Source: an uncultured Clostridia bacterium (lineage in GTDB: Bacteria; Bacillota; Clostridia; UMGS1883). Taken from it: a stretch of 64,000 nt of DNA. Under the pieces are notes generated by a model that saw only the letters and a program-made list of their open reading frames with translations, did no database searches and was not told the origin of the DNA. This document shows positions 12,806-28,181 of the stretch, piece after piece (within the stretch, counting starts at the first letter, position 1; the number at the start of each line of letters is the position of its first letter). The position numbers and the translations under genes are program-made. The stretch lies in the NCBI GenBank assembly GCA_947626145.1, contig CANQRB010000001.1, forward strand, positions 310,001 through 374,000, in the 5' to 3' direction.

Positions 12806-13603
12806 ATGGACAATCGCCCTATTGGGGTTTTCGACAGCGGTCTGGGTGGACTGACCGCCGTAAAACAACTGATAAGCGTTATGCCCGATGAGGATATAGT
12901 CTATTTCGGAGACACGGGACGGGTGCCCTACGGCAACCGCAGCCGTGAAACCATAATACGTTATACGCAGGATGACATAAATTTCCTGCTTGAACACAAT
13001 ATTAAGCTGATAATAGCCGCCTGCGGCACTGCCAGCAGTGTGGCTCTGCCATACATAAAGGATGTCGGGGTGAAGATAATAGGCGTGCTTGAGCCCGCCT
13101 GTCACGCCGCCCTGAAACGTACACGCAACGGAAAAATAGGTGTTATCGGCACTGCCGGCACCATAAAAAGCGACAAATACGCCCAGATAATCAATTCACT
13201 CAATCCAGCGGCACAGGTTTACAGCGCCGCCTGCCCCATGTTCGTGCCCGTCGTGGAAAACGGCTACGCGGACACGGAGGTGGCCAGGATAGTCGCCAGA
13301 GATTACCTGTCCGGCCTGAAAAATGAAGGAGTGGACACACTTATCTTGGGATGCACACATTACCCCTTGCTTGAGGGCGTAATAAGTGATATAATGGGCG
13401 AAGGAGTGGAGCTTATCTCCTCCGGCAGCGAGGCCGCCCGATATGCAAAAAAGCTGCTCGACCGTGAGGGTCTGCTGACGGACCGCCAAACGGAGGGCCA
13501 TCGGGAGTTCTACGTTTCCGACGATGTGGAAAGCTTCGTCCAGCTGGGCGGACTTTTCCTCGGTCAGGAAATCGAGCTGAACGTCCACAGAATGAAATTT
13601 TAA
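12806..13603 (+). CDS. murI: Glutamate racemase
   Basis: Makes D-glutamate for peptidoglycan. The 265-aa protein has FDSGLGGLTAV near the N-terminus and the two catalytic Cys motifs, AACGTAS around residue 73 and LGCTHYPLLEG around residue 185. Start ATG 12806 follows GGAGG. The 12703-12805 gap has only a weak GGCCC/GGGCC hairpin and no clear promoter. It opens a short cluster with DUF1934, the ArgRS-like gene and an S41 protease. Confidence 0.95.
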   Translation: MDNRPIGVFDSGLGGLTAVKQLISVMPDEDIVYFGDTGRVPYGNRSRETIIRYTQDDINFLLEHNIKLIIAACGTASSVALPYIKDVGVKIIGVLEPACHAALKRTRNGKIGVIGTAGTIKSDKYAQIINSLNPAAQVYSAACPMFVPVVENGYADTEVARIVARDYLSGLKNEGVDTLILGCTHYPLLEGVISDIMGEGVELISSGSEAARYAKKLLDREGLLTDRQTEGHREFYVSDDVESFVQLGGLFLGQEIELNVHRMKF

Positions 13604-13709: not shown

Positions 13710-14126
13710 ATGAAACAAGTCTATGTCGAAATAAAGGGAAATGTGACCTCTGACGGCGAGACCGATTCCATGAGCTATTCCACCGAGGGACAGCTCTATA
13801 AAAAATCCGGGAAATTTTATATAAACTATCCCGAGGGCGAGCTTCTTGGCCGCGAACAGTGCCGCACCACCTTGAAGGTGGCTCCTGACGGAGTCGTTAC
13901 CATGCTCCGCAGCGGCGAGGCCAATACCCGAATGGTCTTTGAAAAGGGCCAGTGCCACATGAGCTGCTATGAAACCCCCTTCGGCAATCTTACAGTGAGC
14001 GTGACCGCCAACGATGTGAAAATCGACATGAGCGAAAACGGCGGGCTTTTGGATCTGGACTACAACCTGACCATCAACAGCACGGCCCGCAGCCGCAATC
14101 GCCTCAGCATTAAGGTACGCTCATGA
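13710..14126 (+). CDS. DUF1934 (YwiB-like) beta-barrel protein
   Basis: A 138-aa cytosolic protein of the DUF1934/YwiB family, a calycin-like beta-barrel of unknown function that in Firmicutes is usually encoded immediately before argS. Visible traits are alternating beta strands, EGQLYKKSGKFYINY early and LDLDYNLTIN near the end. Start ATG 13710 follows GGAG at 7 nt. Its stop overlaps the next ATG by 4 nt (ATGA). Confidence 0.8.
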   Translation: MKQVYVEIKGNVTSDGETDSMSYSTEGQLYKKSGKFYINYPEGELLGREQCRTTLKVAPDGVVTMLRSGEANTRMVFEKGQCHMSCYETPFGNLTVSVTANDVKIDMSENGGLLDLDYNLTINSTARSRNRLSIKVRS

Positions 14127-14755
14127 ATTGCCGGATAGAAGCGGAACGTGAACGGATAAGGACATTGTGCCGGGAGACGGCCTTTAAGCTTTACGGCCTT
14201 TGTCCCGCGTTCAGCGTGAGCCGTCCCAGAGACGGAAGGAACGGCGACTTTGCCTCATCCGCCGCCTTGGCTCTTGGCGGAACGCTGAAGCGTCGTCCGT
14301 CGGAAATTGCCGCCGAGCTTGCAGAAAATATCAGTCTTTCGGACGGAGAAAGAGTCGAGCCCGGCGGCAAGGGCTTTCTCAATTTTTATCTCAGGCCAGA
14401 TTTCCTGCTCGGTCTGCTTGAGCCCGTGCGGGAGCTCCCGTATGTTCCGCTTCCGGAGCTCGGTTCGCCGGAGTTTGAGCTTATCTATCCCTATCACCGC
14501 CTTCGCAGAATACTGGAGCTTAGAGGACACAGGCCAACGGGCCGCCAAAATCTCAGCCTGCTTACTTCGCCGTATGAGGTACGGCTGCTCTGGGCTATAG
14601 CCGATGAAAACTGCGGAGAGCTTGCGGCGGCGGCCATGGATTTTTACGACAGGCTGGATCCCGGCCCCGACCTCGAACCTTTGGCCGAGGCCAGATATAT
14701 CCTGCTCAATAACGCGTTGTACCGTCTTTACGGTACAGGAAAGGAAATATCATGA
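14123..14755 (+). CDS. ArgRS-like protein lacking the catalytic core
   Basis: A 210-aa protein in the genomic slot where argS normally follows DUF1934. Residues 1-90 match the ArgRS N-terminal additional domain, with GDFASSAALAL at 41-51 and GKGFLNFYL at 82-90. Residues 120-210 resemble the start and end of a DALR anticodon-binding domain (YPYHRLRRIL at 122-131). The whole class I catalytic region with HIGH and KMSKS, about 350 residues, is absent, with no frameshift or leftover sequence. It overlaps both neighbours by 4 nt, so it is translated as a normal operon member. It cannot aminoacylate; a tRNA-binding or regulatory role is inference. Confidence 0.72.
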   Translation: MNCRIEAERERIRTLCRETAFKLYGLCPAFSVSRPRDGRNGDFASSAALALGGTLKRRPSEIAAELAENISLSDGERVEPGGKGFLNFYLRPDFLLGLLEPVRELPYVPLPELGSPEFELIYPYHRLRRILELRGHRPTGRQNLSLLTSPYEVRLLWAIADENCGELAAAAMDFYDRLDPGPDLEPLAEARYILLNNALYRLYGTGKEIS

Positions 14756-16212
14756 AAAAGAAATTTGTTCCAAAAAAGCTTATCTCACTGCTGCTGACGT
14801 TTACCATGCTGACAGTGCCGGCCTTCGCGGAGGATGAAGCGGCCGTCACCGAGGAAAAACCGGAGATCTCCGTTTTCCGTCAGGAAAGCATAATTCGGGA
14901 ATACGCCCATACTCTTGCGGACAACTACTATTACGGCGCCACCGATCAGAATATTTTATATAACGTGATTTGTGCCACCATCGAAAACGGCGGAGTGTTC
15001 GACCTTGACAACGCGCTCAAGGCCATGGTGATTTCGTTAAACGACGAATATGGCGAATATTACAGCCCTGAGTCCTTTGACAAGCAGGCCGAATATTACA
15101 ATTCCGAATTTTTCGGTATTGGCGCTATACTCACGGTTCAGAACGGCGGCACCGTTATAGACACCATATATTCCGGCAGCGCCGCTGAGATTGCCGGTCT
15201 TCAGGTGGGCGACAGAATTGTGTCCGTGGACGGAACAGACACTTCCAATATGCCCCCGGCCGAAACCCGTGAGCTTTTGGTGGGTCAAGAGGGCACTGCC
15301 GTTGACATAACCGTCCTTCGGGGCGAAGACGATTTTATTTCCGTCAGAGCGGTTCGTCAGCTTGTGAAAGAGAGTCATTCAAACATGACGGTTCTTGACA
15401 ACGGAGTCGCCGTCATCGACGTGGACTCCTTTACGGAGTCGCTTGCCGACGAATTTGACGGCTATCTCGAGGAAATAGCGTCAAAGGATATTCAAAAGGT
15501 GATTATCGACCTGCGCAACAACGGCGGCGGAGAGATAAACGCCGCCATAGCGGTGGCGCAGAAGCTCATTTCCGCCGGTGTTATCGGCAAACTTAAATAC
15601 AAGAATGAGGCCAACAATCAAAACATTTACTCCGAAAACCTCAACGCTCCCCGGTTTGACCTGCTCGTGCTTACCAACAAAATGACGGCGTCGGCCAGCG
15701 AATTCCTGGCAATGGCCCTCCAGAGCCGAGGCAGGGCAAAGCTCCTCGGTGAAAAGACCTACGGCAAGGGCTGTATGCAGGCTATGTTCCGCACGCCCAC
15801 CGGAAGCGGCCTTAAGTTTACCATCGGTGAATTTTTCTCTCCCGACGACGAGCGCATACACACCGTGGGACTTACGCCGGACATAGAGGTCAGCAATATC
15901 GTCATTCCCGTGGACGAAAGTACCTTTGCGGAAATAACACTGGACAAGCTCAACCTGCCGGCTTCAAAAAAAGGTATAGAACAGCGGCTCAACGCTATCG
16001 GCCTGCTGCCGGACAGCGCCGTTGACGGATACTATGACAGCCAAACCGAGGCCGCGGTACGGGTATTCCAGGAGAACAGCCGTCTCGAGGTCACGGGCAA
16101 GGTTGACTTCTACACCGCGTTATACCTCAATGACCGGGGCTATGACGACCTGTCAAAGGTGATTGACGTACAGATGGAAAAGGCCCTGGAATACTTCGAT
16201 TCAATTAATTAA
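14752..16212 (+). CDS. S41 family (CtpA-like) C-terminal processing peptidase
   Basis: A 486-aa secreted protease. A signal peptide ends near AFA at residue 25. A PDZ domain spans about 110-190 (AEIAGLQVGDRIVSVDG). The S41 catalytic domain follows, with TASASEFLAMAL (nucleophile Ser) and GEKTYGKG (general-base Lys). A C-terminal peptidoglycan-binding domain (about 415-470) contains AVRVFQENSRLEVTG. Such enzymes cleave extracytoplasmic proteins at the C-terminus, often in cell-wall or sporulation control. It overlaps the ArgRS-like gene by 4 nt and ends the murI cluster. Confidence 0.9.
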   Translation: MKKKFVPKKLISLLLTFTMLTVPAFAEDEAAVTEEKPEISVFRQESIIREYAHTLADNYYYGATDQNILYNVICATIENGGVFDLDNALKAMVISLNDEYGEYYSPESFDKQAEYYNSEFFGIGAILTVQNGGTVIDTIYSGSAAEIAGLQVGDRIVSVDGTDTSNMPPAETRELLVGQEGTAVDITVLRGEDDFISVRAVRQLVKESHSNMTVLDNGVAVIDVDSFTESLADEFDGYLEEIASKDIQKVIIDLRNNGGGEINAAIAVAQKLISAGVIGKLKYKNEANNQNIYSENLNAPRFDLLVLTNKMTASASEFLAMALQSRGRAKLLGEKTYGKGCMQAMFRTPTGSGLKFTIGEFFSPDDERIHTVGLTPDIEVSNIVIPVDESTFAEITLDKLNLPASKKGIEQRLNAIGLLPDSAVDGYYDSQTEAAVRVFQENSRLEVTGKVDFYTALYLNDRGYDDLSKVIDVQMEKALEYFDSIN

Positions 16213-28105: not shown

Positions 28106-28181
28106 TGGTCGAAGTGGCGAGACTCGAACTCGCGGCCCCCTGCTCCCAAAGCAGGTACGCTACCAGCTGCGCTACACCTCG
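28106..28181 (-). tRNA. tRNA-Pro (UGG anticodon)
   Basis: The minus strand folds as a 76-nt cloverleaf. The acceptor CGAGGTG/CACTTCG has one G-U pair, the D-arm region is GCGCAGCTGGTAGCG, the anticodon arm is CCTGC-TTTGGGA-GCAGG (anticodon TGG), the T-arm has GTTCGAGTC, and the 3' CCA is encoded. A single-copy gene between convergent operons. Confidence 0.95.

Follow-up and report, generated by a model that had tools for sequence, protein, structure and literature searches.

A core-less derivative of the resident arginyl-tRNA synthetase gene, kept in its operon slot in a genus of gut Clostridia, as a possible non-charging tRNA-Arg accessory factor

Between a DUF1934 gene and an S41 peptidase gene, where argS would be expected, the 64,000-nucleotide stretch of DNA analyzed here (the window) carries a small gene that encodes the two ends of an arginyl-tRNA synthetase (ArgRS) without the catalytic core. 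A first-pass annotation had drawn attention to this arrangement. How did such a gene arise, is it maintained, and what might its product do? The features that bear on these questions are the following:

12806..13603, + strand: murI-like (Asp/Glu racemase) gene (PF01177), used as the synteny anchor
13710..14126, + strand: DUF1934 gene (PF09148, E 1.3e-36), with a 4-nt overlap with the small gene
14123..14755, + strand: the small gene, a core-less ArgRS derivative of 210 residues (CDS with stop; ATG to TGA open reading frame)
14123..14431, + strand: ArgRS N-terminal domain of the D-arm-binding type, residues 1 to 103 (PF03485, profile and structure)
14372..14386, + strand: GFLNF motif, residues 84 to 88 (alignment with Thermus thermophilus ArgRS)
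14432..14455, + strand: approximate junction at which the native HIGH..KMSKS catalytic core is missing (alignment with native ArgRS)
14456..14752, + strand: shortened DALR-like helical anticodon-binding domain, residues 112 to 210 (profile, fold and native ends)
14738..14746, + strand: GGAAAGGAA, a Shine-Dalgarno-like site for the S41 gene, overlying the final codons of the small gene (sequence)
14752..16212, + strand: S41 peptidase gene, with PDZ and peptidoglycan-binding domains and a 4-nt overlap with the small gene

The N-terminal half was recognized by Pfam, in keeping with the ArgRS N-terminal domain proposed in the first-pass annotation. Residues 29 to 90 matched PF03485 (Arg_tRNA_synt_N) with an E value of 6.8e-12 and 46.3 bits against a cutoff of 21.5. 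Profile-profile comparison aligned this half with the N terminus of native ArgRS (probability 99.7), and the N domain of the predicted structure, taken alone, superposed on 3gdz (structure rank 11; Z 12.1; 101 residues aligned; rmsd 3.3). All NCBIfam matches were partial, confined to the N-terminal part and far under cutoff: two argS models gave 29.7 and 27.1 bits, the score for the full-length equivalog TIGR00456 being 27.1 bits against a cutoff of 261.65.

The HMM search that had been suggested for both halves succeeded with Pfam for the N-terminal half; the C-terminal half gave no Pfam match at E <= 10, DALR_1 included, and was placed by profile-profile comparison. A profile of the eight orthologous C-terminal halves matched native ArgRS at columns 435 to 571 of 571 only (probability 89; E 2.6e-7), the native profile comprising 21 sequences of the order and class (21/22 native loci passed the pattern). 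Under other options, the match covered native columns 445 to 567 (probability 79; E 1.6e-5). Among 100 column shuffles, none reached the score of 39, and the maximum was 20.1. By profile-profile match and predicted fold, this half is a DALR anticodon-binding domain in shortened form, as the annotated DALR-like end had implied. An internal segment has been lost, as has the PExM-type C terminus that native ArgRS share. Its net charge is −3 to −8, and native DALR domains are acidic too (mean, −3.9); the net charges of the two halves are compatible with tRNA binding and with its absence alike. A plain MAFFT alignment of small and full-length proteins that placed part of the C-terminal half on the start of the catalytic domain was rejected, because the profile picks out the native C-terminal end alone and the fold agrees.

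In native ArgRS, some 300 residues or more separate the parts matched by the small protein. As had been claimed, the catalytic core was not found in the small protein: PF00750, with its HIGH and KMSKS-type motifs, had no match in it at E <= 10. It also had no match in the whole genome that contains the window (G000). A split enzyme with its core encoded by a separate gene was rejected, since that genome has no PF00750 and the second ArgRS known from the genus is itself a full-length enzyme.

The predicted fold leads to the same assignment. An AlphaFold2 model built from the eight sequences had a pLDDT of 85.8 and a pTM of 0.73. In VIA-align, the best 16 rows were all ArgRS chains (Z 9.4 to 15.7; rmsd 3.0 to 4.3), and in 14 of them the alignment began at model residue 1-6, ended at residue 210 and reached both ends of the enzyme while passing over its core. 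Outside ArgRS, the highest row was a CysRS (Z 6.1). The chain 3fnr covered model residues 91 to 210 (Z 9.4; 110 aligned; rmsd 3.1), and both Foldseek matches at E <= 0.001 were ArgRS.

The origin of the gene can be read from its slot. The relative G010 has the order pgk, tpiA, gpmI, murI, DUF1934, argS, S41 peptidase (the first three identified by eye), and G008 and G011 share its DUF1934-argS-S41 arrangement. In the genus of the window, the order is murI, DUF1934, small gene, S41, and a core-less orthologue was present in 8/8 genus genomes examined, the others in the genus being metagenome assembled. DUF1934 lies directly upstream in all six genus loci in which that side is available, in 12/13 other genomes of the family and in 6/6 of family f3; S41 follows the small gene in 8/8 genus loci and argS in 3/3 relatives examined. 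G009 (L016) is the exception in the family, as its argS comes directly after murI and no DUF1934 match was found in between. Each of the 13 genomes from other genera of the family contains a single PF03485 match, in a frame of 560 to 618 residues. Because the slot (murI-DUF1934-X-S41) is occupied in those genera by an intact ArgRS of ∼560 residues, the annotated argS position was correct, and the small gene almost certainly derives from the resident argS by loss of the core in situ.

Core-less homologues were also sought more widely. A scan of species genomes retrieved 65 loci; because it relied on a pair of short peptide patterns, distant homologues would escape it. Seven of these were the genus's own and add no new evidence, and 57 of the other 58 had open frames of 387 residues or more. 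The remaining locus, L099 (214 residues), was rejected as a core-less homologue, as its frame is cut off by the end of the contig and contains a HIGH-type motif. When 393 genomes of the class were surveyed for PF03485, best-scoring matches only were recorded, which gives no count of short ones. The six plasmid records retrieved were all argS genes or weak matches.

We are highly confident that the small gene is under purifying selection. It is open in 8/8 genus genomes, with no stop or frameshift; a TGA counted in G004 is the gene's own stop, the match there running past the ORF end. Rates were taken from chosen pairs, nine for the small gene, of which G007-G002 was saturated and seven of the other eight had dS above 1. 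In the least saturated pair, G006-G004, dS was 0.79 and dN/dS was 0.16, compared with 0.17 for S41. Both halves were constrained (0.14 and 0.19), the N domain slightly more strongly, and dN/dS was 0.09 to 0.33 in all eight pairs with finite dS. Neutral simulation at the G006-G004 distance produced a mean of 6.7 stops, with 0/500 runs stop-free, and an amino acid identity of 0.25 versus the 0.80 observed. The conservation and dN/dS check proposed earlier thus returned a clear answer (8/8 genomes; 0.16 at dS 0.79). The gene nonetheless evolves faster than the adjoining DUF1934 and murI genes, with the highest dN among the compared genes in 7/9 pairs, at a divergence rate like that of S41.

The first-pass annotation had instead taken perfect 4-nt overlaps on both sides as the sign of maintenance. 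The overlaps exist: the DUF1934 stop and the small gene start share ATGA at 14123-14126, and the small gene stop and the S41 start share ATGA at 14752-14755. The gene is indeed maintained and no fresh pseudogene, as dN/dS and simulation indicate. The upstream overlap is a weak argument for this by itself, since it is inherited from an ordinary argS, and the selection test carries the point. The upstream overlap is 4 nt in 6/6 genus loci that have the junction (G002 being counted via its GTG start at 1498), and argS has a 4-nt upstream overlap in Priestia too. The downstream overlap is not inherited. It measures 4 nt in 7/8 genus loci and 11 nt in G005, whereas full argS is separated from S41 by 12 to 39 nt in 3/3 relatives examined (by mechanical start calls); tight coupling to S41 is thus specific to the genus, the shortening of the C terminus having brought the two genes into overlap. 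G-rich equivalents of the site at 14738-14746 occur at the other small gene/S41 junctions of the genus. Because the Gly-Lys-Glu end of the protein coincides with this Shine-Dalgarno-like site, GGAAAGGA(A/G), conservation of GKE may serve translation rather than the protein. No tRNA-related gene adjoins the small gene, no tRNA modification gene was identified among its immediate neighbors, and no tRNA-Arg gene lies near the locus, the sole tRNA gene in the window being a tRNA-Pro (TGG) at 28106-28181.

If the resident argS has lost its core, another enzyme might be expected to charge tRNA-Arg, and the earlier suggestion to look for a full argS elsewhere was answered differently by different genomes. 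In 6/8 genus genomes, a different ArgRS with a PF00750 core is encoded elsewhere, and this enzyme is of a distant type. It is full length in five loci (583 to 601 residues) and split between two contigs in G005. It has its own N domain (PF03485 above cutoff in the six genomes) and its own full C-terminal part. A tree was built from 40 of the 42 ArgRS loci by a fast search, which carries its own warning about long-branch attraction. It groups the five full-length copies in a single clade (SH-aLRT 100), beside sequences of other families of the class and at a great distance from native ArgRS. This topology fits a single gain, apparently horizontal, before the genus radiated. Within the family, the second ArgRS and the small protein are both confined to this genus.

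The search for a second ArgRS was negative in the genome that contains the window, both with PF00750 and with the genus ArgRS, and no PF00750 was found in G001. For G000, an assembly gap is the likely reason. G003 has argS upstream of hisZ, with a large secreted-protein gene in between, and the argS contig of G007 ends at the start of hisZ. In G000, the contig with hisZ measures 6,150 bases, is collinear with G003 across hisZ and ends less than 1 kb upstream of it, on the argS side. In G004, G005 and G002, argS sits at the end of a contig or on one that is short. What weakens the case for a gap is that similarity between G000 and G007 on the opposite flank stops short of argS, and that the surroundings of argS differ among G002, G003, G006 and G007. 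With the G000 contig ending beside the expected argS neighborhood, a gap is the simple answer.

What the small protein might still bind is suggested by its N domain. In the alignment with the T. thermophilus enzyme, F85 and N87 of GFLNF are the counterparts of Tyr77 and Asn79, and position 85 is F or Y and position 87 is N in 8/8 orthologues. Shimada et al. are said to have reported in 2001 that these two Thermus residues read A20; a search of titles and abstract starts for Tyr77/Asn79 and A20 returned nothing. The GFxN motif is conserved in 21/21 native ArgRS, and because it is invariant in the native enzymes, its survival in the small protein may be structural. In bacterial tRNA-Arg, the D-loop base A20 is described as being contacted before the anticodon and, in Escherichia coli, as the main arginine determinant (PMC9976931).

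From the architecture, the slot, the second ArgRS and the selection, all read from sequence, we infer an order of events. An ancestor of this genus, most likely through horizontal transfer, would have gained a full-length ArgRS of a distant type; the resident argS, freed from charging, would then have lost its Rossmann core, part of its anticodon domain and its C-terminal end. Both tRNA-gripping domains would have been retained and fused, with the place in the operon unchanged and purifying selection acting to preserve them. The product probably binds tRNA, most likely tRNA-Arg, through an N-terminal domain that would read the D arm (A20), with the anticodon contact perhaps weakened or altered. 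Its role would be accessory and non-charging, as an adaptor for a modification enzyme in the manner of DALRD3 or as a chaperone or sensor of uncharged tRNA-Arg, and translational coupling would cause it to be produced together with DUF1934 and the S41 peptidase. We put the chances of such an adaptor, chaperone or sensor role at about even, and the best explanation as a whole, a core-removed resident argS kept as a non-charging tRNA-Arg accessory factor, we regard as evenly balanced between right and wrong. More tentative is the fuller version, which we consider possible yet somewhat doubtful, of a stand-alone tRNA-Arg-reading adaptor or regulator, trimmed in place and translationally locked to the peptidase gene, as a bacterial counterpart of DALRD3 whose emergence can be followed.

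Tight, genus-specific coupling to S41, loss of the PExM end and an S41-like rate of divergence would also suit a protein that has given up tRNA and whose domains now serve protein-protein contacts within the DUF1934-S41 operon, for instance by regulating a process of the envelope or partnering it from the cytoplasm. We consider this unlikely, though worth keeping in mind, as the N domain keeps the tRNA-reading motif and is under slightly stronger constraint; moreover, S41 follows argS in relatives too, so the neighborhood is inherited and provides no evidence of a shared task. A role in trans with the acquired ArgRS, providing extra tRNA affinity or fitting it to the host tRNA-Arg set, would account for the co-occurrence of the two in 6/8 genus genomes (the other two assemblies are incomplete) and for their restriction, within the family, to this genus. 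The two genes are not linked, however, and an acquired enzyme with its own N domain and full C-terminal part should need no help in charging, which makes this role improbable.

Two further readings fare worse. The gene could be a relic in slow decay, or could persist solely as a spacer for S41 translation, as its highest dN in 7/9 pairs and the coincidence of the GKE end with the S41 Shine-Dalgarno-like site might suggest; dN/dS values of 0.09 to 0.33, constraint on both halves, intact frames in 8/8 genomes and the lack of a stop-free neutral run in 500 make this very unlikely. Least probable of all, with hardly any weight in our view, is that a full ArgRS is absent from some members, including the genome with the window, and that these charge tRNA-Arg by another route that involves the small protein. 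The missing PF00750 and genus-ArgRS matches in G000 and the missing PF00750 in G001 are what speak for it, against a normal ArgRS in six sister genomes and a likely assembly gap near hisZ in G000.

The accessory factor that we favor differs from its closest relative, the native ArgRS of the same Clostridia family, in having no catalytic core, full anticodon domain or PExM C terminus, while the N-terminal domain, the DALR-type C domain and the DUF1934-S41 slot are common to both. The first-pass annotation had called a tRNA-Arg binder without charging activity new, which overstates the case, given vertebrate DALRD3 and an ArgS-related family named in NCBIfam, NrtL. DALRD3 has no synthetase core and has been shown to bind particular tRNA-Arg species as a specificity factor for the METTL2 methyltransferase (PMC7237682). 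That source presents DALRD3 as limited to vertebrates, with an N-terminal part that has no recognizable domain, and leaves open whether it arose by duplication or domain insertion. The small protein resembles it in having an ArgRS-related DALR domain without the core and differs in its ArgRS-type N domain and its origin by in-place reduction of argS. NrtL (NF045898, ArgS-related anticodon-binding protein) is a named relative of ArgS distinct from ArgRS, with a model of 327 positions that is too short for a whole ArgRS. Its N domain is similar, and the small protein scored 36.8 bits against a cutoff of 340, matching model positions 32 to 105 only, and is thus not assigned to this family. Other relatives of aminoacyl-tRNA synthetases, HisZ, AsnA, PoxA/EpmA and Glu-Q-RS, have likewise been kept for other tasks. 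These retain the catalytic domain, whereas the small protein retains all but that (PMC3532385 and PMC9437257). Searches of titles and abstract starts found no description of bacterial core-less or truncated ArgRS or ArgRS-like proteins, nothing on point for ArgRS displacement and nothing in print on NrtL function. The concept of a core-less tRNA-Arg binder is already known, and the novelty is the in-place bacterial origin.

A synthetase gene that has been displaced is generally assumed to be lost altogether. Here, one operon slot allows the state before (full argS in sister genera), the state after (core-less in 8/8 genomes) and the probable cause (a foreign ArgRS) to be read together. The locus therefore offers a clean, testable case of the passage from an essential enzyme to a factor that has no catalytic activity and probably binds tRNA, and it provides, in a bacterium, a simple setting for asking what such proteins do.

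The surroundings of the acquired argS vary. Its neighborhoods differ in G002, G003, G006 and G007, and the neighbors identified by eye at L130, L131, L132 and L133 include an HAD-like gene, an asnS-like gene before argS, a small helix-turn-helix gene and an rsmH-like gene after it. Four neighborhoods in four species of one genus suggest that the acquired argS moves often. Similar stretches of ∼100 to 170 bases lie near the G007 argS and a G000 secreted-protein-like gene (L130, 9502-9607 and 14206-14367; L141, 12302-12469) and are perhaps a dispersed repeat that breaks assemblies. At its end (L148, 5215-5909), the G000 contig C23 reads into a short peptide that recurs, beside a gene that by eye resembles one for a DUF559-type endonuclease.
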